Shown in pieces: positions 8,367-57,112 of a stretch of 64,000 bases of DNA; the stretch's first letter is position 1; each line of letters begins with the position of its first letter. Location: the NCBI GenBank assembly GCA_016793245.1, contig JAEUHW010000290.1, forward strand, positions 1 to 64,000, written 5' to 3'. The stretch is from Planctomycetota bacterium (lineage in GTDB: Bacteria > Planctomycetota > UBA1135 > JADKAF01). The translations under genes and the position numbers were made by a program. The notes below the pieces were generated by a model, which saw nothing but the letters and a program-made list of their open reading frames with translations, was not told the DNA's origin and did no database searches.

Positions 8367-9605
8367 TCAGCCCGCCAGCTTCTCCTGCAGCTTGAAGATC
8401 GGCAGGAACACCGCGAGGACGATCGTGCCGACGATGAAGCCCATCACCGAGATCATGATCGGCTCGATCATCGAGGTCAGGCTCTTCACCTCGGCCGCGA
8501 CCTGCTCGTCGTAGAAGACCGCGATCTTCTCGAGGAGGGTCTCCAAGGCGCCCGACTTCTCACCGATCGCGATCATCTTGGTGACCATGGGCGGGAAGAC
8601 CGGCGACTCGGAGAGCGGCCGCCAGAGCGTCTCGCCCGATCGCACCGAGGCCTTGGCGTGGTCGATCGCCTTGCTGACCACCGAGTTGCCGGAGGTGACC
8701 CCGACGATGTCCATCGCAGCCAGGATCGGAACGCCGCTCTTGATCAAGGTCGAGAAGGTGCGGGAGAAGCGCGAGAGCGCGATCTTGCGCACGAGCTGAC
8801 CGAAGATCGGGACGCGCAGATAGAAGCTGTCGAGCAAGGCGCTGCCGCGCTTGCTCTTCTTGAACGCGGAGAAGCCGAAGAAGAACCCCGCCCCGATGCC
8901 GAACATCGCGAGCACGTTGTCCTTCATCCAATCGGCCGTGTCCATCACCACCCTGGTGAGAGCGGGCAGCTCGATCTCCAGCGAGGTGAAGACCGGCTTG
9001 AACGACGGCACGATGCCGATCATGAGGAATCCGGCGATGCCGATGACCAGCACGAGGGAGATCACCGGGTAGGTCATCGCCGATTTCACCTCGCGCCGCA
9101 GCGAATCGGCGGCCTCCAGGTATTCGGCGAGGCGCACGAGGATCAAGTCGAGCTGACCGGAGACCTCTCCCGCCTTGATCATGGAGATGTAGAGGTCCGT
9201 GAAGATGCGCGGGTAGCGCTGCAGAGCCGACGAGAGGTCGGCCCCCGTGCGGACCTCGTCGACGACGCCGGTGACGCATTGCTTGAAGCCGGGAGACTCC
9301 GCCTGCTCGCTCAGGATCTCCAGCCCCTCGAGCAGAGGGATGCCCGCTCCGATCATCGTCGAGAGCTGGCGCGTGAAGAGGATCAGCTCGCCCTTCTTCG
9401 CCTTCGGTCGCGCGATCCGCTTGCCGCCACCGGAGCTGCGTCCCCCACCGCTGTCCTTGCCGGCCGCTCCCGCGGCGCGGACGCTGAGCACGGTGAGCGA
9501 CTGGCGCCGGAGCTCGTTGATCGCCTCGGACTGAGAGCCCGCGGTGATCATGCCCGAGACCGACTGGCCGCGCGCGTCCTTGGCCGCGTACTTGAACTTC
9601 TGCAT
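8367..9605 (-). CDS. pilC: Type IV pilus/T2SS inner-membrane platform protein PilC (GspF family)
   Basis: PilC is the polytopic inner-membrane platform that couples the PilB ATPase to pilin assembly. The 412-aa protein starts with the GspF-family opening MQKFKYAAKDARGQSVSGMI. Two GspF repeats follow, the first with LILFTRQLSTMIGAGIPLLEGL and the second with ALSRFSRTFSTLIKSGVPIL. Three hydrophobic segments lie around VISLVLVIGIAGFLMIGI, NVLAMFGIGAGFFFGF and the C-terminal IEPIMISVMGFIVGTIVLAV. The sequence motif PPMVTKMIAIGEKSG is typical. Length is standard. It begins 18 nt after the pilB stop, so the two are translated from one transcript. Confidence 0.95.
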   Translation of the reverse strand: MQKFKYAAKDARGQSVSGMITAGSQSEAINELRRQSLTVLSVRAAGAAGKDSGGGRSSGGGKRIARPKAKKGELILFTRQLSTMIGAGIPLLEGLEILSEQAESPGFKQCVTGVVDEVRTGADLSSALQRYPRIFTDLYISMIKAGEVSGQLDLILVRLAEYLEAADSLRREVKSAMTYPVISLVLVIGIAGFLMIGIVPSFKPVFTSLEIELPALTRVVMDTADWMKDNVLAMFGIGAGFFFGFSAFKKSKRGSALLDSFYLRVPIFGQLVRKIALSRFSRTFSTLIKSGVPILAAMDIVGVTSGNSVVSKAIDHAKASVRSGETLWRPLSESPVFPPMVTKMIAIGEKSGALETLLEKIAVFYDEQVAAEVKSLTSMIEPIMISVMGFIVGTIVLAVFLPIFKLQEKLAG

Positions 9606-9623
9606 CGTAGCCTACTCCCTCTC

Positions 9624-11345
9624 TCAGTCGTCTCCCGACGTGATGCGCAGGACTTCCTCGATCGTCGTCTTGCCCCGCGTGGCGTTCAGGATGCCCGTGC
9701 GCCGCAGCGTGAGCATCCCCTCCGCGACGGCCTTCGCCTTCAAGTCCAGGACCGGCTTGTTCTCGACGACCATGCGCTTCAGAGCCTCGCTCATGTACAT
9801 GGTCTCGAGGATCGCGAAGCGTCCTCGGTAGCCGCCGGAGCAGCGCTGGCAGCCCACGGCCTTCATCAAGCCGAGACCGCGCTCGAAGTCGGAGTCGATG
9901 AACCCGATGGCCCGCAAGCGCTCTTCCGGATACTCCACGGGCTCCTTGCAGTGCTCGCAGAGCTTGCGCAGCAGGCGCTGCGCCGAGATCAGCACGGTGG
10001 ACGACGCGACCATGAACGGATCGAGGCCCATGTCGACCATACGCGTGATCGTCGAAGGCGCGTCATTCGTATGGATGGTCGAGAGCACCAGGTGACCGGT
10101 GAGCGCGGCCTTCACCGCGATCTCGATCGTCTCCTTGTCGCGGATCTCGCCCATCAGGATCACGTCGGGGTCCTGGCGCAGGATCGAGCGCAGCGCGGCG
10201 GCGAAGGTCATCCCACGCTTCGGGTTCACGGGCACCTGGTTGATGCCCTCCATCTGGTACTCGACGGGGTCCTCGACGGTGACCAGGTTGATGTCCGGGG
10301 TCGCGATCTCCTGGACCGCGGAGTAGAGCGTGGTCGACTTGCCCGAGCCGGTCGGGCCCGTCACCAGGATCATCCCGTACGGCTGATTGATCGCGTCGCG
10401 GTAGTGCTGCAGAGCGATCGGCTCGAAGCCCAGGCTGTCGAGCGCCAGGTTCATCTTGCCGGTGTCGAGCACGCGCATGACGACCTTCTCGCCGTGCACG
10501 ATGGGCAGCGTCGAGACGCGGAAGTCGATCTGACGGCGCTCGAACTTGATCTGGAACTTGCCGTCCTGCGGCTTCATGCGCTCGGCGATGTCGAGCCGCG
10601 ACATGATCTTGATGCGCGAGATGATGCCGTTCTGGAGCGCCTTCGGCGGCTGCTTCGGGCATTCGCGCATGACGCCGTCGACGCGCATCCGCACGCGGAA
10701 GCGCTTCTCGTACGGCTCCATGTGGATGTCGCTCGCGCCCATCTTGAGGCCCATCGCGATGATCGCGTTGGCCACCTTGACCACGGGCGAGTCCTCGGAG
10801 CTCACGTCCGAGATGTCGTAGCTCTCGGCCTGCTCGGCTTCGGCGGCCTCCGCGGAGATCGAGTCGCCCTCGATCCCCTCCAGCATCTTCTCGACCTGCT
10901 TCTCCGCGACCTTGAAGGCCTTCTCCACCGCGTCGCGGATCGCCTTGTCGGTCGAGACGACGGGCCGCAGAGTGCACTGGGTGATCAGACGCAGGTCGTC
11001 CAGCTTGACGACGTTGAACGGGTCCGCGACCGCGACGGTGAGCACGTCGCCGGCCTTCGCCACCGGGAACACGCCGTGGTGCAGCGCGGTCTCGCGGTTG
11101 ATGATCTGCAGGCACTCGTCTTCGACCTGCACGCGAGCGAGGTCGATCGGCGGGATGTTGCTCGCGCGAGCGATCGCGGCGATGAGGGCCCCTTCGTCGA
11201 CCACCTTCTCCTCGAGCAAGAGGGTGACCAACGACTTCTTCTCCTGGTCGGCGCGCGCCGACATGGAGATCGCGATGTCCTCCGCCAAGACCCCCGCCTT
11301 GACGAGGATGTCGCGGAACCGCCGAGATACGCCGATCGCAACCAA
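9624..11345 (-). CDS. pilB: Type IV pilus assembly/T2SS ATPase PilB (GspE family)
   Basis: PilB is the cytoplasmic hexameric ATPase that powers pilin polymerisation. The 573-aa protein has an N-terminal GspE/MshEN-type domain (residues ~1-170), then a catalytic core. Walker A is GPTGSGKST (about 330-338), the Asp box is VTVEDPVEYQM, Walker B lies in RSILRQDPDVILMGEIRDKET, and the His box is HLVLSTIHTND. A four-cysteine zinc site (LCEHC ... GCQRC) is characteristic of the assembly ATPases and absent from PilT. It is 15 nt downstream of pilT and 18 nt upstream of pilC, in one operon. Confidence 0.96.
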   Translation of the reverse strand: MVAIGVSRRFRDILVKAGVLAEDIAISMSARADQEKKSLVTLLLEEKVVDEGALIAAIARASNIPPIDLARVQVEDECLQIINRETALHHGVFPVAKAGDVLTVAVADPFNVVKLDDLRLITQCTLRPVVSTDKAIRDAVEKAFKVAEKQVEKMLEGIEGDSISAEAAEAEQAESYDISDVSSEDSPVVKVANAIIAMGLKMGASDIHMEPYEKRFRVRMRVDGVMRECPKQPPKALQNGIISRIKIMSRLDIAERMKPQDGKFQIKFERRQIDFRVSTLPIVHGEKVVMRVLDTGKMNLALDSLGFEPIALQHYRDAINQPYGMILVTGPTGSGKSTTLYSAVQEIATPDINLVTVEDPVEYQMEGINQVPVNPKRGMTFAAALRSILRQDPDVILMGEIRDKETIEIAVKAALTGHLVLSTIHTNDAPSTITRMVDMGLDPFMVASSTVLISAQRLLRKLCEHCKEPVEYPEERLRAIGFIDSDFERGLGLMKAVGCQRCSGGYRGRFAILETMYMSEALKRMVVENKPVLDLKAKAVAEGMLTLRRTGILNATRGKTTIEEVLRITSGDD

Positions 11346-11360
11346 CGCAGGTTCCTCCGA

Positions 11361-12428
11361 CTAGGCGTTGCGGTTCAGCAAGCGCGCGAACTCCGAGGCG
11401 TCGGGAGAGACCGACGAAGCGTCCTCGTAGCCCACCTGGTTCGAACGGTAGAGGTCGGCGAGCGACTGGTTCATGGTCTTCATGCCCTGCCGCCCACCGG
11501 TCTGGATGATCGAGTAGATCTGGTGCGCCTTGTTCTCGCGGATCAGGCTGCGCACGGCGGCGTTCACCACGAGCACCTCGGCGGCAAGAGCACGACCGCG
11601 CTGGTTGGCGCGCTGCACGAGCTGCTGGCAGACGACGGCTTGCAGCGTGAAGCTGAGCTGGGTGCGGATCTGCTGCTGCTGATGGGCGGGGAAGACGTCG
11701 ATGATGCGGTTGATCGTCTGGATCGTGTCCGAAGTGTGCAGCGTCGCGAAGGTGAGGTGTCCGGTCTCGGCCAGCGTCATCGCGGCCTCGATCGTCTCCA
11801 TGTCTCGCATCTCGCCGACGAGCACGTAGTCGGGGTCCTGACGCAGCACCGAGCGCAGCGCCGGTGCGAAGGAGCGGGTGTCGCTCCCGACCTCGCGCTG
11901 ATTCACGAGGCAGTTGCGATTGCGGTGCAGGAACTCGATCGGGTCCTCGATCGTGACGATGTGCCCGTGCCGCATCTCGTTGATGTAGTTGATCATCGCG
12001 GCGAGGGTCGTCGATTTGCCGCTGCCGGTGGAGCCTGTGACCAGCACCAGGCCCTTCGGCATCATGCAGATCTCCTCGCAGACGCGGCGCGGCAGGCCGA
12101 GCTGGTCGAAGTCGTAGACCTCGAACGGGATCATGCGCAGCACGGCGGCGACCGTGCCGCGCTGCAGGAAGACGTTGGTGCGGAAGCGACCGAAGCCCGC
12201 GAAGCCGAAGGAGCAGTCGAGCTCCCACGTCGATTCGAAGCGGGCGATCTGCTCGGTCGTGAGCACCGAGTAGACGAGCTTCTGCGCGACCTCGCTCGTC
12301 AGCGGCGCGTACTCGGTCTCGATCAAGCGGCCATCGACCCGGATGCGCGGCGACGAGCCCACCGAGATGTGCAGGTCCGAGCCACCTCGCTCCACCAAGG
12401 TGGAGAGCAGGTCTTCCATCGAGATCAT
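11361..12428 (-). CDS. pilT: Type IV pilus retraction ATPase PilT
   Basis: PilT is the hexameric ATPase that depolymerises pili for twitching or DNA uptake. This 355-aa protein has Walker A GSTGSGKSTT, Asp box IEDPIEFLHR, Walker B RQDPDYVLVGEMRDMET, His box HLTFATLHTSDT, and an AIRNLIRE-like C-terminal motif (AVRSLIRENKAHQI), which is diagnostic for PilT. I use the ATG at 12428 (MISMEDLL); a TTG at 12446 is in frame but has no advantage. The zinc cysteines of PilB are absent. A second PilT-type gene lies at 31052. Confidence 0.94.
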   Translation of the reverse strand: MISMEDLLSTLVERGGSDLHISVGSSPRIRVDGRLIETEYAPLTSEVAQKLVYSVLTTEQIARFESTWELDCSFGFAGFGRFRTNVFLQRGTVAAVLRMIPFEVYDFDQLGLPRRVCEEICMMPKGLVLVTGSTGSGKSTTLAAMINYINEMRHGHIVTIEDPIEFLHRNRNCLVNQREVGSDTRSFAPALRSVLRQDPDYVLVGEMRDMETIEAAMTLAETGHLTFATLHTSDTIQTINRIIDVFPAHQQQQIRTQLSFTLQAVVCQQLVQRANQRGRALAAEVLVVNAAVRSLIRENKAHQIYSIIQTGGRQGMKTMNQSLADLYRSNQVGYEDASSVSPDASEFARLLNRNA

Positions 12429-12608
12429 CGGTCCGCCTCGCCGCAAGGTCCTTGGAGCGGTCGCACCTCCGCCTCCGCTGCGGCGGAGAGAGGATGCGGG
12501 CGCTCTATCCCGTGCGTTATCGGCGTTCGACTCGTGGGGGTTGAGCCCGCGCGAGGTTGGCTCGCAGGAGCCTCCATTCCGGAGGGCATCCCGGGCGGCC
12601 GAAACGCA

Positions 12609-39567: not shown

Positions 39568-41472
39568 TCACTCGCCGCCTTCGACCGGCGGATGCTCGCC
39601 GAAGACGTCCTTCAGTTCCTTCTCGAGGATGTCGCGGCGCTGGGTGAGCTCTTCCTCGAGCCAGTTCTGCGTGTCCTCGGGCGAGGCGACGATGTGCGGC
39701 GTGATCAGCACGATCAGGCTGCGGCGATCCTTCGAGTTGCTGGTGAACTTGAAGAGCCAGCCCGCGATCGGGATGTCGCCGAGGAACGGCACCTTGCGGA
39801 CGATCTCGGTCTCCGTGTCGGTGCTGAGGCCCCCGATCACCGCGGTCTGCCCCGAGTCGAGCATCATGCGCGTCATGACCTCGCCGCTCTGGATGCGCGG
39901 GAGCGCGACGCGGCCTTCGGCGTCGTTGGCGCCGACGGTGAAGATGTCGAAGCCGGGAGGAGCGCCATCGCCGCCGGAGCCGGTCAGCGCCTGCTGCTTC
40001 GGCATCACCTCGAGGATGATCTTGTCCGAGCCGGGCACGATCTGCGGGATCATCAGGAGCTGGAAGCCCGTGTTCACCGGCGAGTTGCGCGCTTCCTCGA
40101 CGGTCAGCGAGAGGCCGCCCGCCTGGCCCTGCTCGGTGCGGGCTTCGGCGTAGCGAATCTCCTCACCGACGAAGATCGTCGCCGGCTGGCGATCCAGCGC
40201 GATGATCCGCGGCGCCTGGACGATCTTCGCGCGGATGTCGCTCTTCAGGAGGCGCAGGGTCGCCTGCACGCCGGTGAAGTCGAGCATCCCGTAGAGCGTG
40301 TCCGGAATGGTCCCGGGCGAGGCCCCGCCAGGGAAGGGACCGCTGCCGCCGCCCTGGAAGTTCGGCGACTGGGGCCCACCGGTGCCGGGATTCGTGACGA
40401 TGATGCCGTCCTCGAAACCGCCGTCGCCGAGGACGAAGGGCAAGGAGATCGGCACCGCCCCCATCGAGATCGAGGCCGAGGGACCGGACTGCCCGTAGTC
40501 CATGCCGAAGTCGAAGACGTCGGTGTTCACCGTCGAGATGAACTTCACGTCCACGAACACCTGCCGCGGCTCGATGTCCATCGCGCGCAGCATGCGCTCG
40601 ATCGCGCCATGCGCGATCGGAGTGTCGGTGACGATGAGCACGTTCTTCGACGCGACGTAGTCGAGGGTGCCGTCCGCCGAGAGTCCCTTGCGCAGAGCGG
40701 GCAGGAGGTCGAAGTCGACACCTTCCGCCTTCGCGAGCTTCACGTCGCCCGCGTCGCGAGTGCCCTGAGTGGCCCCGCCGGAGCCGATGAAGAACTGCGA
40801 CTGGATGCGAGGCGTGTAGTAGGACGACGGCGAGAGGTAGCGGAGCTGGTAGGAGCGCGTCTCGAGCTCCGCTTTGAGCCGCGTGGAGTGCACGATGCGC
40901 AGGATGCCTCGGCCCTCCTCCACCACCACATAGCCGAGCTGCTTCACCGCGGTGTCGAGCGCGTCGCGCCAGGGGATGTCCTTCAGGCGCATGGTGATCG
41001 TGCCCTGCACCTCGGCGTCGAAGACCACGTTGGCGCCCGCCAGCTTCGAGATCACGTTGATGACCTCCGCGAGCTCGGCGCTCTCGAAGGAGAACGTGAC
41101 CGTCACCGGCTTCTCGATCTTGAAGAGGTTCGGCGCTCGCTCGATCACGATGCAGCCGCCCTTCTCCGCAGCGAGGTCGAGGGCTTGGCGCCACTCGACG
41201 TCGTTCAGCTCGAGCGAGATCGAGACATCGATCGCCTCGTCGACGACGATGTTCACTCCGGCCTGGCCGGCGATGTACTCCATCACCGTGCGGAGCTTGC
41301 GGTCCTGCACGGCGATGCTGAGCTTCACCACGCCACCGGAGCGGCTGCTCCGCTGCGCGGATTGCGGCGCTTCCTGGCCCGAGATGGGGCCTTGTTCCTG
41401 CGGAACCGCCTCGCCGGCGAAGAGCAGAGCTCCCGCCGCGAGCGCCGCCAGGAGCATCTTGGCTCTGGTCAT
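39568..41472 (-). CDS. pilQ: Type IV pilus secretin PilQ
   Basis: PilQ forms the outer-membrane pore through which the pilus passes. The 634-aa precursor has a signal peptide (TRAKMLLAALAAGALLFAGE). Two N-domains follow, each with the LRTVMEYIAGQAGVNIVVDE and LAEVINVISKLAGANVVFD pattern. The C-terminal secretin domain contains QVFVDVKFISTVNTDVFDFG, AVIGGLSTDTETEIVRKVPF and LGDIPIAGWLFK. An AMIN peptidoglycan-binding domain was not recognised. I chose the ATG at 41472 with GAGGAGAG upstream. It is the last gene of pilM-pilN-pilO-pilQ, 73 nt from pilO. Confidence 0.94.
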   Translation of the reverse strand: MTRAKMLLAALAAGALLFAGEAVPQEQGPISGQEAPQSAQRSSRSGGVVKLSIAVQDRKLRTVMEYIAGQAGVNIVVDEAIDVSISLELNDVEWRQALDLAAEKGGCIVIERAPNLFKIEKPVTVTFSFESAELAEVINVISKLAGANVVFDAEVQGTITMRLKDIPWRDALDTAVKQLGYVVVEEGRGILRIVHSTRLKAELETRSYQLRYLSPSSYYTPRIQSQFFIGSGGATQGTRDAGDVKLAKAEGVDFDLLPALRKGLSADGTLDYVASKNVLIVTDTPIAHGAIERMLRAMDIEPRQVFVDVKFISTVNTDVFDFGMDYGQSGPSASISMGAVPISLPFVLGDGGFEDGIIVTNPGTGGPQSPNFQGGGSGPFPGGASPGTIPDTLYGMLDFTGVQATLRLLKSDIRAKIVQAPRIIALDRQPATIFVGEEIRYAEARTEQGQAGGLSLTVEEARNSPVNTGFQLLMIPQIVPGSDKIILEVMPKQQALTGSGGDGAPPGFDIFTVGANDAEGRVALPRIQSGEVMTRMMLDSGQTAVIGGLSTDTETEIVRKVPFLGDIPIAGWLFKFTSNSKDRRSLIVLITPHIVASPEDTQNWLEEELTQRRDILEKELKDVFGEHPPVEGGE

Positions 41473-41545
41473 CTTCTCTCCTCTTGCTTCCATGCGTCCG
41501 TTCTCGTCCGACCGCCCCCTCCTCGCAGGAACGGCCCGTCGCGCG

Positions 41546-42958
41546 TCAGCGTTTCTTGACGATCACGACGTTCTTGTAGATGAACTCGATGCTGTCTTGC
41601 TTGATCAGGTGGACGACCAGGTCGTCCTCGAGCAGCTCGCCCTCGGAGACCGCCTGGCCATTGATGATCGCGGCCGCGCCGGTCGGCATGATCGCGACCC
41701 CCGAGACATCGAGCTTCTTCGCGCGGAACTCCTTCGCGACGACCGCCTTCGAGGCGAGTCGCTGGATCTCCGTCACGTAGGGCCGGCGCTTCGGGTCCTT
41801 CGCCGTCGCGGCGAGGCGGTCCTTCACCTTCGTATTGCGTTCGATGACCGCGTCGAGGTCACCGGACTGCAACAGCTTCTGCACGTGGTCCAGGAGGACC
41901 TTCAGCTCCTTCATCGTGAGCGTGAAGTCGAGCTCGCCTTCGCCCTTCAGCTTGTCGAAGCGCAGCTTCAGCTCTTCGAAGAGCTTGACCTCGCGATTGA
42001 ACTTCGAGCGCAGCGGGAGATAGGTGAAGACGTTCTCCGCCTCGGCGTCGTGGACCATCTTGTCCAGCTCGGCGATGCCGGCGCTGATGCGGTGGTGCAA
42101 GTCGAGGCGCTCGATCATCGCCGTGGCTTCGAGGCGGCGCTCGTACGCGCCCTCGACCTCGGTCAGCTTCGCGTGGATCTGCTCGAAGATCTCGCGCTGC
42201 TCCTCGATGCCTCGCGCCGCGAAGGGCTGCTCGGTGTCGACGGGGATGCGCGGATCGATGAAGGGATCGCGCCGATTGCGCGCGCCGGTGAAGGCGTACG
42301 GGGTCGGCGGGATGATGTCCTTGCGGTTCAGCGCGATGCGCTCCTGCAGCTCCTGGACGCGGCGCTCCTCGTTCTGGATGCGGGTCGGCTCGGAGCTCCC
42401 CTTGCGCGGGTTGTAGCGGTAGGTCTGCACGAGCAGCTTGGCCTCGTGGACGACGTCCTCGATGTCGCCGCCCGGCGCGCCCTTGCCCGGCTTGATCGAG
42501 ATGCGGGGCACGATCATGAAGCGCCGACGCGACTCGACGCGGTTCAGGAACGACATGAGCTGCCAGAGCGTGCCATCGACGCTGAGCTGGTAGGAGACCG
42601 GCTCGAAGGCCCCCTTGCTCGCGCCTCCCGGGTTCGGGTTGTAACCCTGCACCCTGATCCCGGTCTCGGCCGCCGTGTTGGACAGCGAATCGAGGAACTC
42701 GGTCACCATGCGCTCGTCGGGGAGGATCTTCACGTACTCCTCGACGTTCTGTCGCAGCACGATCACGTCGTCCTCGAGACCGCGGATCTTCGCGATCCTC
42801 GTCCGCGCATCCGTGACCTTCTTCGACTCGCCCTCGATCTCTCGAGTGCGGAGCTCGATCTGCTCCTTCGCCGAGTAGGTCAGGTATCCCAAGGCTCCGC
42901 ACGCGAGCAAGGTGCCCGCGCCGATCAAGAGCAGGGTTTTCTTCTGGTCGAGAGCCAC
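41546..42958 (-). CDS. pilO: PilO-type pilus alignment protein with a C-terminal PilP/GspB-like part
   Basis: PilO forms the inner-membrane alignment complex with PilM, PilN and PilP. The 470-aa protein is twice the usual length. Residues 1-180 are PilO-like: a transmembrane helix (LLLIGAGTLLACGALGYLT), coiled coil and the periplasmic ferredoxin-like part (FEPVSYQLSVDGTLWQLMSF). The motif RRDPFIDPR at 229-237 is typical of PilP, which follows. Residues ~250-400 are a charged helical insert, and the last 60 residues (GAAAIINGQAVSEGELLEDD) resemble the PilP/GspB beta-domain. I therefore read it as a PilO-PilP fusion, and no separate pilP was found. It starts with GTG. Confidence 0.8.
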   Translation of the reverse strand: MALDQKKTLLLIGAGTLLACGALGYLTYSAKEQIELRTREIEGESKKVTDARTRIAKIRGLEDDVIVLRQNVEEYVKILPDERMVTEFLDSLSNTAAETGIRVQGYNPNPGGASKGAFEPVSYQLSVDGTLWQLMSFLNRVESRRRFMIVPRISIKPGKGAPGGDIEDVVHEAKLLVQTYRYNPRKGSSEPTRIQNEERRVQELQERIALNRKDIIPPTPYAFTGARNRRDPFIDPRIPVDTEQPFAARGIEEQREIFEQIHAKLTEVEGAYERRLEATAMIERLDLHHRISAGIAELDKMVHDAEAENVFTYLPLRSKFNREVKLFEELKLRFDKLKGEGELDFTLTMKELKVLLDHVQKLLQSGDLDAVIERNTKVKDRLAATAKDPKRRPYVTEIQRLASKAVVAKEFRAKKLDVSGVAIMPTGAAAIINGQAVSEGELLEDDLVVHLIKQDSIEFIYKNVVIVKKR

Positions 42959-43037
42959 CGTGTTCGCCTCTCTGCTGAGGAGCGCCTGAGCACTCCCATC
43001 CTCGGTCCGCTAAGGATCGCGACTCGAGCTTCGCGGG

Positions 43038-43724
43038 TTATTTGGCCGATCGCGCGGCGCGCGAGAGCACCGGCATGGCGATCGGGAAGTTCATGACGTT
43101 CGCGGGCTCGAGGGCTTGATCCTCTTGCTCCACCAGGTCGAACTTCGGGTCTTCGATGTGGGCGAAGTCCCGGAAGAACTCCTCGTTCGACTTCAGGTCG
43201 TTCAGGAACGCCACGATCGAGCTCGCGTGCTCGGTGGCGCACATGCCCGTCAGGCGCACGTTGCCCGCCGTCTCGGCCTCGGCGCTGTCCTTCTTCTTCT
43301 TCTTCTTGCCGCTCTCGATCACGTTCTGGGTGATGTCGATGGAGCCGAACCATACGAGGTAGCCCTCGCCGGACTCCTCACGCGGCTCGCCGGCGTTCGT
43401 GATGTCGATCAGCTCGTCGATCTTCTTCGTCCACGAGATGCGGCTCTTCGAGATCTCGTGGATCGTCGTCGCGCGCGCGGAGTAGTCGTCCTTCTCGCGC
43501 ACCAGCGAGTCGTGGTGCTTCACCTGCGGCGCGAGGCCCGAGAGCTCGGACTTCACTTCCGCCAGGCGGGCTTCGACGGAGCTCAGCTCGCCGAAGAAGG
43601 TGTCTGCGTAGTAGAAGCCGCAGGCGCAGACGGCCATGACGGCGGCGATCAGCGCGCCGAACACACGGAGCGGCGTGCGATCGCGACGGCGGTACTCCGC
43701 CGGTAGGAGATTGACGCGAATCAT
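43038..43724 (-). CDS. pilN: Type IV pilus alignment protein PilN
   Basis: PilN binds PilM with its N-terminal peptide and pairs with PilO. The 228-aa protein starts with the PilM-binding motif MIRVNLLPAEYRRR, a transmembrane helix (VFGALIAAVMAVCACGFYY) and a coiled coil, then the periplasmic part with YLVWFGSIDITQNV and VRLTGMCATEHASSIVAFLN. A Lys-rich run (six Lys) lies in the middle. It begins 18 nt after pilM. Confidence 0.9.
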   Translation of the reverse strand: MIRVNLLPAEYRRRDRTPLRVFGALIAAVMAVCACGFYYADTFFGELSSVEARLAEVKSELSGLAPQVKHHDSLVREKDDYSARATTIHEISKSRISWTKKIDELIDITNAGEPREESGEGYLVWFGSIDITQNVIESGKKKKKKDSAEAETAGNVRLTGMCATEHASSIVAFLNDLKSNEEFFRDFAHIEDPKFDLVEQEDQALEPANVMNFPIAMPVLSRAARSAK

Positions 43725-43742
43725 GTTCCTCTTCCTCTCTGC

Positions 43743-44774
43743 CTAGGCCGCGCGAGCGGCGAGCCCCACGGCGACGGCCAGCGAAGGCGCCCAGAGGTTC
43801 AGCTCGTCGATGTCGACGCCCTCGGAGCGGATCTTCAGCCCTTCGATCGGGTTCCAGACGCGGGTCTTCTTCTCGATGCGCCGCTCGAGGTCGACGTCGA
43901 GGAACGGCAGGAGCGCCGAACCACCGGAGAGGAAGACCTCCTCCACCGCGACGTTGTTCTGCTGCTCGAAGAACTCGAACGACATCGCCACTTCGTTGGC
44001 GAGGTCTTCCAGCTCCTTCGCGAGCGCGGACTGGATCTGCTCGATCTGATGGTCCTCGGGCGAGCACTTCAGCGTCTCGGCGTCGAGCAGCTCCTTGCCG
44101 AAGCTGCGCGCGACCGCCTGCGTGAAGGCATTGCCGCCCGAGTAGATCTCGCGCGTGAACATGCTCGTCCCCGCGCGCACCACGTTGATGCAGGACTTGT
44201 TGGCGCCGATGTCGATCAGCGCGATCGCGCGGTCCTCGCCGCTGATCGTGGGCACGAGGCCTTCGTTCAGCTCGAAGGCGTTGCCGATCGCGAAGGCATC
44301 GACGTCGATGGCCATCGGCGAGAGCCCGGCCCCGACCAGGTTCTTCGCCATCTCGTCCACCTGCGAGCGCTTCACCGCGACGAGGAGGACCTTCATCATG
44401 TCGCCGACGGCTTCCTTGCCTTCCTCTTCGAGCGGCACGCAATCGAGCGCGACCTCATCGATGTCGAAGGGGATGTACTTGTCCGCTTCGAACTGGATGG
44501 CGTTCTTCAGCTCGTCGCGCGACATCCGCACCATCGGCACGTAGCGCACGATGACGCCCTTCCCGCTCACCGCGGCGACGACGCGCTTCGTCTTGAAGCC
44601 GCCGCGCCGGAAGAGCTCCGGCACGACGTCGACGGGGTTCCCGTCCGGTGGTACCTCGACCCGCGCGAAGCCGGTGATCAGGTAGTCGTACTTGTCGCGG
44701 GTGATCTCGACCGCCTTCACTGCGTTCGTGCCGAGATCCAGACCGACGATGCTCTTGCGGGTTCCGAAGAACAA
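43743..44774 (-). CDS. pilM: Type IV pilus actin-like protein PilM
   Basis: PilM is a cytoplasmic actin-fold ATPase-like protein that binds the PilN N-terminus. The 343-aa protein has the opening GLDLGTNAVKAVEI, the region VVAAVSGKGVIVRYVPM with ELKNAIQFEADKYIPFDI, the phosphate loop ALIDIGANKSCINVV and the C-terminal FLSGGSALLPFLD. It starts with TTG at 44774, with GGGAGG upstream, and a small hairpin (44792-44810) lies just before it. It heads the pilMNOQ operon. Confidence 0.94.
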   Translation of the reverse strand: MFFGTRKSIVGLDLGTNAVKAVEITRDKYDYLITGFARVEVPPDGNPVDVVPELFRRGGFKTKRVVAAVSGKGVIVRYVPMVRMSRDELKNAIQFEADKYIPFDIDEVALDCVPLEEEGKEAVGDMMKVLLVAVKRSQVDEMAKNLVGAGLSPMAIDVDAFAIGNAFELNEGLVPTISGEDRAIALIDIGANKSCINVVRAGTSMFTREIYSGGNAFTQAVARSFGKELLDAETLKCSPEDHQIEQIQSALAKELEDLANEVAMSFEFFEQQNNVAVEEVFLSGGSALLPFLDVDLERRIEKKTRVWNPIEGLKIRSEGVDIDELNLWAPSLAVAVGLAARAA

Positions 44775-51874: not shown

Positions 51875-51997
51875 GGGAGCGGAAGAGAGGCGGGCGCCCC
51901 GACAGCACACGAAACCGCATACTTATGGCTGCTCCGTTCCCGGCCTGACCAGGTTCGTACCGTCCCGTTGCGTCGGACCCGCCCCTCTTCCGCTCCC
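51875..51997 (-). ncRNA. ffs: Bacterial small signal recognition particle RNA
   Basis: The minus strand contains the SRP domain IV core GGTCAGGCCGG followed by GAACGGAGCAGCC, corresponding to the 4.5S RNA loop that binds Ffh. The ends pair as a long helix: GGGAGCGGAAGAGGGGCGGG at 51978-51997 with the complementary arm at 51875-51894, with a single G-U position. Total length about 123 nt, the size of the small SRP RNA without an Alu domain. It lies between tRNA-Ser(GGA) and dnaX, the same order as in many Firmicutes. Confidence 0.92.
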
Positions 51998-52031: not shown

Positions 52032-52121
52032 TGGCGGAGAGAGAGGGATTCGAACCCTCGATACGGTTTCCCGTATACACGCTTTCCAAGCGTGCTCCTT
52101 CGGCCACTCGGACACCTCTCC
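52032..52121 (-). tRNA. tRNA-Ser(GGA)
   Basis: 90 nt on the minus strand with the acceptor GGAGAGG pairing TCTCTCC, anticodon arm ...GCACGC-TTGGAAA-GCGTGT... with anticodon GGA, and a long variable arm (TACGGGAAACCGTA) typical of serine tRNA. The T-loop is TTCGAAT. CCA is encoded at the 3' end (52032-52034). It reads codons UCC and UCU. Confidence 0.95.
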
Positions 52122-52370: not shown

Positions 52371-52461
<91 letters not shown>

Positions 52462-53124: not shown

Positions 53125-53198
53125 TACGCCCATGAGGAGTCGAACCTCAAACCTCCTGATCCGTAGTCAGGTGCTCTATCCAATTGAGCTATGGGCGC
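53125..53198 (-). tRNA. tRNA-Arg(ACG)
   Basis: 74 nt on the minus strand: acceptor GCGCCCA, D-arm AGCTCAATTGGATAGAGC, anticodon arm CCTGA-CTACGGA-TCAGG with anticodon ACG, T-arm with TTCGACT, and 3' strand TGGGCGT. CCA is not encoded; the sequence continues TCC. A34 is the site edited by TadA to inosine so that one tRNA reads CGU, CGC and CGA. A consensus promoter lies just upstream and tadA downstream. Confidence 0.95.
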
Positions 53199-54326: not shown

Positions 54327-54390
54327 GGACAGGCGGAGCGGCCGAGCAGGAATCGCTCCGAGAGCCTCTCCGGCGATGGCGGGCGCGGCG

Positions 54391-54556
54391 TCCTGACGGC
54401 CCGGCGGTGTTGGTGGGCGCAGCGTCCTGACGGCGCCGCGGGGTTGGATAGCGCAAAGCCTGACGGCGCGTCGATGTTGGACAGCGCAGCGCCTGACGGC
54501 GCCGCGATGTTGGCTGGCGCAGCGCCTGACGGCGCTGCGATGTTGGTGCGCGCGCT
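54391..54556. repeat. Five-copy 33-bp tandem repeat between convergent genes
   Basis: Units begin CCTGACGGC at 54391, 54425, 54458, 54491 and 54524 (period 34, 33, 33, 33), with a partial sixth copy after 54556. The inner units have the form CCTGACGGCGCCGCGATGTT followed by GG and a GCGCAGCG tail. Copies differ by a few bases. The array lies in the 246-bp gap where ArgF' and the epimerase converge. The 33-bp period keeps reading frames open, but no gene is supported. Confidence 0.85.
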
Positions 54557-54572
54557 CGACGGCGGCGCGGAA

Positions 54573-55577
54573 TCAGATCCAGCCGCGCTCGCGATACCAC
54601 GCCGCGGTCGCCTCCAGGCCCTCTCGCCACGCGATCGTCGGCGCGAAGCCGAGCTCCGCGCGTGCGCGCTCGCCCGAGCAGGTCCAGGCCGGCGCGGCGA
54701 GCTCGCGCAGCTTGTCGCGGCTGAGCTCCGGTGCCTTGCCTCGCAGGCGCGCGTAGAGCTCGCTGCCGAACGCGACGCCGTTCGCGAGGAAGCGCGGGAT
54801 CCGCACGACGCGCGCTCGCTTGCCCAGCGCACGCGCGATCACCTCGATCACCTCCGCGAAGGAAGGCGTCCCCGCGCCGGTGAAGAAATAGCTCCTACCG
54901 GTCGGCACCTCGCGCTCGAGCAGCAGAACGAGCCCGCGTGCGAGATCCGCCGCGTGGATGAGGGAGAGCTCGATGCCCGGGGCACCGGGGAACGGCGCCC
55001 AACCCGCGCGCGCCATCTTGAAGAACGAGAGAGTCGCGCGATCTCCGGGACCGTAGACCGCGGGCGGCCGAGCGATCGCGACCCGCAGGCGATCGGCTCG
55101 CCGCAGCGCCTCGAGTTCGCCCTCGCGCTTGCTCTGGCCGTACCACGAGATGGGCGCCTCGACCTCGGTCTCGAGACGCGCCGCCCCGGGGCGCGAAGGC
55201 CCGGCGGCCGCGAGCGAGGAGACGAGGACGAAACGCGGTGGCGCCGGCTGGCGCAGCGCGGCATCGAGGAGACGGGCGGTCCCCTCCGCGTTCACCGTGC
55301 GGAACGCGGCGAGGTCGCGGGCGGCGATGAGCCCGGCGAGGTGCAGCACGGCATCGCAGCCGCTCAACGCCTCGGTCAGATCGTCCGCGGAGCCGAGGTC
55401 GCCGGGGCAGAGCTCCAGCGCGTCGGGATCGAGCCCGATCGCCGCGAGCTCCGCTCGACGCGACTCGGCGCGCGAGACGCTGCGGACCAGCGCGCGCACG
55501 CGATGTCCTCGGCGCACGAGCTCGGGCAGGGCGAATCCACCGACGAATCCGGTGATCCCGGTCGAGAAGACGAGCAT
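54573..55577 (-). CDS. NAD-dependent epimerase/dehydratase family protein (extended SDR)
   Basis: The 334-aa protein has the Rossmann start MLVFSTGITGFVGGFALPEL (GxxGxxG), SSLAAAGPSRPG and the catalytic YGQSK, then ARPPAVYGPGD typical of extended SDRs. Substrates range from NDP-sugars to lipid ketones. The neighbouring SPT-like gene, divergent across about 320 nt, raises the possibility that it reduces a 3-ketosphinganine as CerR does in Caulobacter. The ATG at 55577 begins the Rossmann fold; longer frames are not supported. Confidence 0.85.
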   Translation of the reverse strand: MLVFSTGITGFVGGFALPELVRRGHRVRALVRSVSRAESRRAELAAIGLDPDALELCPGDLGSADDLTEALSGCDAVLHLAGLIAARDLAAFRTVNAEGTARLLDAALRQPAPPRFVLVSSLAAAGPSRPGAARLETEVEAPISWYGQSKREGELEALRRADRLRVAIARPPAVYGPGDRATLSFFKMARAGWAPFPGAPGIELSLIHAADLARGLVLLLEREVPTGRSYFFTGAGTPSFAEVIEVIARALGKRARVVRIPRFLANGVAFGSELYARLRGKAPELSRDKLRELAAPAWTCSGERARAELGFAPTIAWREGLEATAAWYRERGWI

Positions 55578-55677
55578 GGGTTCCTGGGGGCGTTCCGCAG
55601 CCGCGGCGGAAGCGCGCGTTCCTACCGCTTCGCCCGGCGCCGTCAAGCGCGGGGCCCCCTCCGGGCTCCGCCGCGGG

Positions 55678-55707
55678 TTGACATGCCCTCCGGCGCGCCC
55701 CTACACT
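55678..55707 (+). promoter_or_regulatory. Sigma-70-type promoter upstream of the SPT-like gene
   Basis: Consensus -35 TTGACA (55678-55683), an 18-nt spacer and -10 TACACT (55702-55707) lie in the divergent gap between the epimerase and the SPT-like gene, giving a 5' untranslated region of about 185 nt. Confidence 0.7.
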
Positions 55708-55897
55708 CCGCCCCTTCGCAGGCAGCGGGTCGCCGCGCCTGTCGCCGCCGGCGTCCGATCCGCCGGGCTACCGTCCCCGAAGACCTCTCGGCAGATTGCT
55801 CCCGCTTGTGCGCGTGGCCGACTCCGGCCGCTCGTACTTCTCGAGCGTCCGCGAGGGCCTTCGGTGGAGCGGATCCAACGCTGGAGACCCTGCCCAA

Positions 55898-57112
55898 GTG
55901 CCCGACCTCTTCGACAAGGTCCTTCGCTTTCACGAGCTCGACGCGTTCAAGGCGGCTGGCCTCTATCCCTACTTCCGCGCCATCCGCGCGAGTGAAGGCA
56001 ACGAGGTCGAGATCGACGGCCGCCGCCTCGTGATGGCGGGATCGAACAACTACCTCGGCCTGACCCACGACGCGCGGGTGAAGGCCGCCGCGATCCACGC
56101 GGTCGAGGAGTTCGGGTCCGGCTGCACGGGCTCGCGCTTCCTGAACGGGACCCTCGAGCTCCACGTCGAGCTCGAGCGCCGGCTCTCCGCCTGGACGAAG
56201 CGCGGCGCGGCGATCACCTTCTCCACCGGCTTCCAGACCAACCTGGGCATCATCTCGTGCTTGGTCGGCCGCGAGGACGTGGTGTTCAGCGACCGCGACA
56301 ACCACGCCTGCATCGTCGATGGCTGCCGCCTCTCGTTCGGCGAGTTCGTGAAGTTCCGCCACAACGACATGAGCGACCTGCAGCGGCGCCTCGCGGCGTC
56401 GCCCGCCGACAAGGGCAAGCTCATCGTCGTGGACGGCTGTTACTCGATGTGCGCCGACCTGGCGCCCCTCGACCAGATCTGCGAGCTGGCCGACCGCTAC
56501 GGCGCGCGCGTCCTGGTCGACGAAGCGCACTCCTTCGGCGTCTTCGGCGCGAACGGCCGAGGGGCCTGCGAGCACTTCGGCGTCGAGGAGCGCGTCGATC
56601 TCGTGATGGGGACCTTCTCGAAGTCCTTCGCTTCGCTCGGCGGCTTCGCCGCGGGACGAGCGGACGTCATCGCCTACATCCAGCATCACGCGCGCTCGCT
56701 CATCTTCTCTGCGTCGATCGCACCGGCCTCCGCCGCCGCAGCTCTCGCGGCGCTCGACGTGATCGAGCGCGAGCCCGAACGGCGCGAACGCGTGCTGGCC
56801 ATCGCCCAGCGCGTTCGAGACACCCTGCGCGCAGACGGCTTTCCCGTCCTCGGGGAGATCTCCCCCATCATCCCGCTCGTGATCGGCGAACGCGTGCGCG
56901 TCTTCCGCTTCTGGAAGCGCCTCTTCGAGCGCGGCGTGTTCACGAACCCGGTCACGGCGCCCGCCGTGCCGCAGGGCATGGACTTGATCCGCATGTCGTT
57001 CATGTCCACGCACACCGAAGCGCAGGTCGACTTCGTGATCGAGCAGGTGCGCGAAACGGTGGCGGAATTCGCCGACGAGCTGCCCTGGTATCAGGGCAGC
57101 GTGGCCGGCTGA
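55898..57112 (+). CDS. Alpha-oxoamine synthase, serine palmitoyltransferase-like
   Basis: This PLP enzyme of the alpha-oxoamine synthase family (SPT, AONS, KBL, ALAS) has 404 aa. Family motifs: GSNNYLGL, EFGSGCTGSRFLNGT, the PLP-stacking His in RDNHACIVDG (His136), VDEAHSFGVFG (Asp208), and the PLP lysine in GTFSKSFASLGG (Lys242). The opening region LFDKVLRFHELDAFKAAGLY followed by PYF resembles bacterial serine palmitoyltransferases more than AONS or KBL. Serine palmitoyltransferase condenses serine and acyl-CoA to 3-ketosphinganine. AONS (biotin) or another oxoamine synthase remains possible. GTG at 55898 is chosen; a TTG at 55796 is also in frame. Confidence 0.8.
   Translation: MPDLFDKVLRFHELDAFKAAGLYPYFRAIRASEGNEVEIDGRRLVMAGSNNYLGLTHDARVKAAAIHAVEEFGSGCTGSRFLNGTLELHVELERRLSAWTKRGAAITFSTGFQTNLGIISCLVGREDVVFSDRDNHACIVDGCRLSFGEFVKFRHNDMSDLQRRLAASPADKGKLIVVDGCYSMCADLAPLDQICELADRYGARVLVDEAHSFGVFGANGRGACEHFGVEERVDLVMGTFSKSFASLGGFAAGRADVIAYIQHHARSLIFSASIAPASAAAALAALDVIEREPERRERVLAIAQRVRDTLRADGFPVLGEISPIIPLVIGERVRVFRFWKRLFERGVFTNPVTAPAVPQGMDLIRMSFMSTHTEAQVDFVIEQVRETVAEFADELPWYQGSVAG

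Follow-up and report, generated by a model that had tools for sequence, protein, structure and literature searches.

A divergent spt-cerR-like gene pair in a planctomycete order and its predicted place in bacterial ceramide synthesis

The stretch of DNA analysed here, referred to as the window, comprises 64,000 nucleotides on contig C157 of a 7.57 Mb genome assembly (458 contigs, 89.6% complete). No SSU rRNA was found in the assembly. The encoded RpoA shared 50-59% identity with its counterparts in five named genomes of Planctomycetota and no more than 46% with those of other phyla; being closest to Planctomycetota, it identifies the organism as a planctomycete. Within the window, an SDR gene and an alpha-oxoamine synthase gene were both intact and lay where the first-pass annotation had placed them. 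The longest open reading frame of the SDR spans 54573-55646 on the minus strand, with the ATG at 55577 as the likely start of a 334-residue protein, while that of the synthase spans 55796-57112 on the plus strand, beginning with a TTG at 55796. The homologous part of the synthase starts near 55898, and the likeliest start of spt is a GTG at 55898, which is preceded by a GGAG 11 nt upstream and would yield a product of ~404 residues. The codon-position GC pattern of the two reading frames was of the type expected for real genes, with GC3 values of 0.87 for the SDR and 0.91 for the synthase. The features of the locus are:

54573..55577, minus strand: candidate cerR-like extended SDR reductase (3-ketosphinganine or 3-ketoceramide reductase), from the CerR HMM and linkage to spt
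55898..57112, plus strand: spt, putative serine palmitoyltransferase-type alpha-oxoamine synthase, from the PDB match, tree, AU tests and active-site residues
55678..55707, plus strand: sigma-70-like promoter of spt, TTGACA-18-TACACT, from a pattern scan
55578..55897, strand not applicable: divergent intergenic region, from the cerR start to the spt start

The flanks of the pair consist of housekeeping genes, named by eye as tadA and an N-acetylornithine-carbamoyltransferase-like gene, followed by dnaE, rplQ and rpoA. The gap that separates the carbamoyltransferase gene from the end of the SDR holds a 33-base tandem repeat at 54377-54569 (~5.7 copies, 80% match). The region between dnaX and the carbamoyltransferase gene holds a bacterial small SRP RNA (51885-51984, minus strand) and three tRNA genes (52035-52121, 52375-52461 and 53125-53198, minus strand). 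Elsewhere in the window, type IV pilus/type II secretion genes were recognised by eye at 8367-12446 and 39568-44774 (minus strand). The divergent adjacency of spt and the SDR gene was retained in 27 of the 28 Spt-positive genomes of the order to which this planctomycete belongs, the 28th being split by a contig end.

The two genes had been described in the first-pass annotation as divergent around a consensus promoter, and both the divergence and a sigma-70-like pattern were indeed found. The element at 55678-55707 (plus strand) matched the consensus at 10 of 12 positions, as compared to 0 occurrences in 50 shuffles. Of 25 relatives, most carry a similar TTGAC/TTGTC-(16-18)-TA box ahead of spt, in a comparison without a shuffled control. 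The element faces the direction of spt only, so that the description holds, but there is no evidence for a bidirectional promoter shared by both genes.

Among solved structures in the PDB, the synthase was most similar to Sphingobacterium Spt (8guh/3a2b, 414 bits), with lower scores for Sphingomonas-type Spt (278-285 bits), KBL (244 bits), the cysteate acyltransferase CFAT (207 bits) and AONS (199 bits). Its identity to S. multivorum Spt amounted to 50% over 381 residues, as compared to 36% for E. coli Kbl and 32% for BioF. The top NCBIfam model, SerpalmtaseCFB (NF047600), scored 512.4 bits, which is under the curated cut-off of 640, a naming threshold and not a biochemical definition. This cut-off appears to have been set for Bacteroidota, and the shortfall is to be expected because the model was trained on one phylum, but it is still a miss.

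A phylogeny with SPT, AONS and KBL had been set beforehand as the test that could refute an SPT-like synthase. In a tree of 76 rows, the synthase fell within a 57-row clade (93/90) that holds the Spt proteins of S. multivorum, S. wittichii and E. coli BL21, and it clustered with almost all of the sequences from its order. Forcing its union with Kbl or with BioF was rejected in AU tests (p 0.0003 and p 0.003, respectively), which rules out a KBL or AONS identity. A separate Kbl is encoded in the same genome (486.7 bits, cut-off 460). The genome also carries a third alpha-oxoamine synthase on contig C268 (2324-3382; 2327-3451 in locus L012), which is BioF-like with 216 bits against the bioF cut-off of 426, has Ser and Ala aligned with the Asn and Arg found in the active site of the others, and sits on a very long branch.

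The active-site and PLP residues N53, H139, D211, H214, K245 and R368 (numbering of the synthase, P0001) were all present, K245 being the PLP lysine and H139 the stacking His. At the position of Lys281, which is diagnostic of the cysteate enzyme SulA and is Ala in Spt (PMC9304779), the synthase has A275, and Ala was found in all 26 members of the order that were compared. A SulA/CFAT identity was ruled out by this Ala275 and by the 207 bits for CFAT versus 414 for Spt. Together, the placement in the Spt clade, the 50% identity to S. multivorum Spt and the Spt-type A275 are in agreement with the earlier description of the synthase as SPT-like and largely support its assignment to the Spt group, with its substrate use being predicted.

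For the divergently transcribed SDR, a CerR HMM was used that consisted of SDRs located beside Spt/bCerS in other phyla plus the CerR of E. coli BL21, with zero sequences from the order under study. This order-free model gave 322 bits for the SDR (P0002), as compared to 193 bits for the highest-scoring of its paralogues in this genome; the paralogues compared were the SDRs that had already been retrieved by their similarity to P0002. The spt-adjacent SDRs of other order members scored 225-319 bits. The protein has a Rossmann TGxxGxxG motif at residue 6 and a catalytic YGQSK (YxxxK) at residues 146-150, both of which were conserved in the alignment; with the Rossmann motif already at residue 6, no obvious signal peptide was seen by eye. 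SDRs related to P0002 directly adjoin Spt and bCerS in other phyla, and SDR-Spt-bCerS neighbours were found in Nitrospirota, Planctomycetota, Gemmatimonadota, Chloroflexota, Acidobacteriota and others. The SDR tree was weakly resolved, with the SDR and the BL21 CerR falling together into one large clade. The best NCBIfam model was HpnA, with 123.5 bits well under its cut-off of 367.65, and another SDR in the genome was nearer to HpnA with 228 bits; these scores rule out an HpnA-type epimerase. The order-free HMM scores and the conserved position beside spt thus substantiate the proposal that the SDR is a reductase of the CerR group.

Acyl carrier protein and ceramide synthase genes had been named in the first-pass annotation as companions to look for. 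A bCerS profile that combined 15 sequences of several phyla, E. coli YghO among them, detected one bCerS in the genome, on contig C163 (50756-51853, minus strand; 444 bits, E 5e-133). The ceramide synthase gene is therefore present, although it is unlinked to the pair. Its product is 36% identical to BL21 YghO. The gene adjoins mraZ-mraW-ftsI-murF of the dcw cluster, as in many relatives; by eye, the conserved bCerS neighbours were mraZ, mraW, ftsI, murF and unassigned proteins. At the loci of this order bCerS was not found beside the spt-SDR pair, and in seven relatives that have spt and bCerS on one contig the two are roughly 50-110 kb apart. No obvious sphingolipid genes were seen among the neighbours conserved in at least six spt loci or at least four bCerS loci. 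The search for an acyl carrier protein gave the opposite outcome to that for bCerS, since no such family was conserved in the flanks of the pair. Likewise, an AasR orthologue was not found in the genome, where the search returned weak generic matches (26-27%). The hallmarks of the Rhodobacteria type, namely a specialised AcpR together with AasR and an acpR preceding spt, were accordingly absent from the AasR search and from the flanks of the pair. This fits the Bacteroidota/deltaproteobacterial Spt subgroup (PMC9386255).

Across the order, Spt and bCerS occurred in an identical set of 28 out of 61 genomes. Exactly the same 28 genomes have a CerR-type SDR with a score of 311 bits or more, and the next best SDR anywhere reached 215 bits; the CerR model of this count (A3) contains order members, so that the count leans towards orthologues from the order. 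All sampled members of family f8 (e.g. G007, G012, G016 and G020) were without Spt, bCerS and the CerR-type SDR, and families f5 and f4 were mixed for the three genes. Mapping presence and absence onto an rpoA tree required seven joint changes (gains or losses) of Spt, the CerR-type SDR and bCerS. The independent pairs on well-supported branches agreed in five out of five cases (sign test, p 0.0625), this value reflecting the five pairs available, as fewer than six cannot reach 0.05. That three genes at two separate places on the chromosome were gained or lost together is good genetic evidence for a single pathway.

We therefore consider it highly probable (about 0.9) that spt and cerR belong to a bacterial ceramide pathway of three genes, with bCerS as the third, and that its predicted output is ceramide. 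The candidate sphingolipid gene pair proposed earlier has thus gained support from the Spt clade placement, the CerR-type SDR, the bCerS gene in the genome and the perfect co-occurrence of all three. In the proposed mechanism, the PLP enzyme Spt would convert serine and a long-chain acyl thioester, with either ACP or CoA as the presumed acyl carrier, to 3-ketosphinganine and CO2. The GNAT-type N-acyltransferase bCerS would attach the second acyl chain, and CerR would use NAD(P)H to reduce the 3-keto group, either ahead of this acylation or following it. The end product of the three-gene set would be (dihydro)ceramide, most simply dihydroceramide, presumably destined for the cell envelope.

In a variant of this pathway, the reductase may act first. 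According to the first-pass annotation the pair by itself could make dihydrosphingosine, in which case bCerS would subsequently acylate this free base, as in eukaryotes. Such an order was proposed for Caulobacter by Olea-Ozuna and colleagues (as cited in PMC11324152), Bacteroides thetaiotaomicron has a known 3-ketosphinganine reductase (PMC11087976), and in the planctomycete cerR and spt share one locus while bCerS lies elsewhere. Gene position does not, however, settle the order of reactions. In Caulobacter, moreover, a cerR deletion leads to the accumulation of oxidised ceramide and CerR is periplasmic, which supports acylation first; CerR may there reduce N-acyl-3-ketosphinganine after bCerS (PMC11087976). 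The order of CerR and bCerS is disputed in Caulobacter itself (PMC11324152, PMC11087976). We regard the reductase-first variant as a realistic option, somewhat less likely than not.

An analogue of ceramide as the product, either a 1-deoxyceramide made from alanine or a sulfonolipid made from cysteate, seems unlikely to us. In the Black Sea, 1-deoxyceramides and sulfono-1-deoxyceramides correlate with Spt-like genes, and Planctomycetota there carry such genes (PMC11334938). Enzymes of the Spt family are able to accept alanine or other amino acids, which makes a 1-deoxy backbone conceivable. Against the analogue stand the Ala at the diagnostic Lys281 position of SulA (PMC9304779) and the far lower score of the CFAT structures. 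We consider it very improbable that the pair is unrelated to sphingolipids, with the synthase being a KBL, AONS or autoinducer synthase and the SDR a sugar epimerase such as HpnA: all these enzymes belong to the same superfamilies and HpnA is the best NCBIfam model of the SDR, but Kbl and BioF were rejected by the AU tests, the genome has its own Kbl and an SDR nearer to HpnA, a CqsA-type autoinducer synthase model scored far lower, and the co-occurrence with bCerS was perfect.

Returning to the three-gene ceramide pathway, its distribution suggests a history for which we see roughly even odds: ceramide synthesis may be an ancestral capacity of this planctomycete order, and the unlinked three-gene set, operating without an AasR activation step, may have been lost as a unit several times. 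If so, the members with and without the set would offer a natural comparison for the role of sphingolipids in the planctomycete envelope.

Ceramide is a membrane lipid that was once considered rare in bacteria. The present analysis provides a well-supported pathway prediction for a mostly uncultured group, for which matched Spt-positive and Spt-negative relatives are available for lipid analysis. A literature search by titles and abstracts yielded no direct report of sphingolipids in a cultured planctomycete, which does not prove their absence. The findings add to the case for sphingolipids as a common bacterial lipid and leave the known chemistry unchanged.

In comparison with known systems, all the active-site residues listed above are common to the planctomycete synthase and Sphingobacterium multivorum Spt (3A2B, 8GUH). 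The synthase belongs to the same major clade as this enzyme and the Bacteroidota/deltaproteobacterial Spt subgroup; it differs in representing a separate Planctomycetota lineage, with a predicted substrate use. The ceramide cluster of Caulobacter crescentus and E. coli BL21 consists of aasR, cerR, acpR, spt and bcerS, and Spt, a CerR-type SDR and bCerS are found in the planctomycete as well. The planctomycete differs from that cluster in that the search for AasR gave no orthologue, the flanks of the pair hold no conserved AcpR family, cerR and spt are divergent, and bCerS is unlinked, lying beside mraZ-mraW-ftsI. Spt-like genes were previously reported in 138 Planctomycetota MAGs from the Black Sea, and in many of the cases of that study bCerS and CerR were likewise present without being co-localised (PMC11334938). 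Gene family and phylum are the same as here, so that the gene pair represents an already-known kind of pathway. What the present analysis adds to the Black Sea MAGs is the order-wide synteny of spt and cerR, the position of bCerS in the genome, and the finding that all three genes were gained or lost together within one order.
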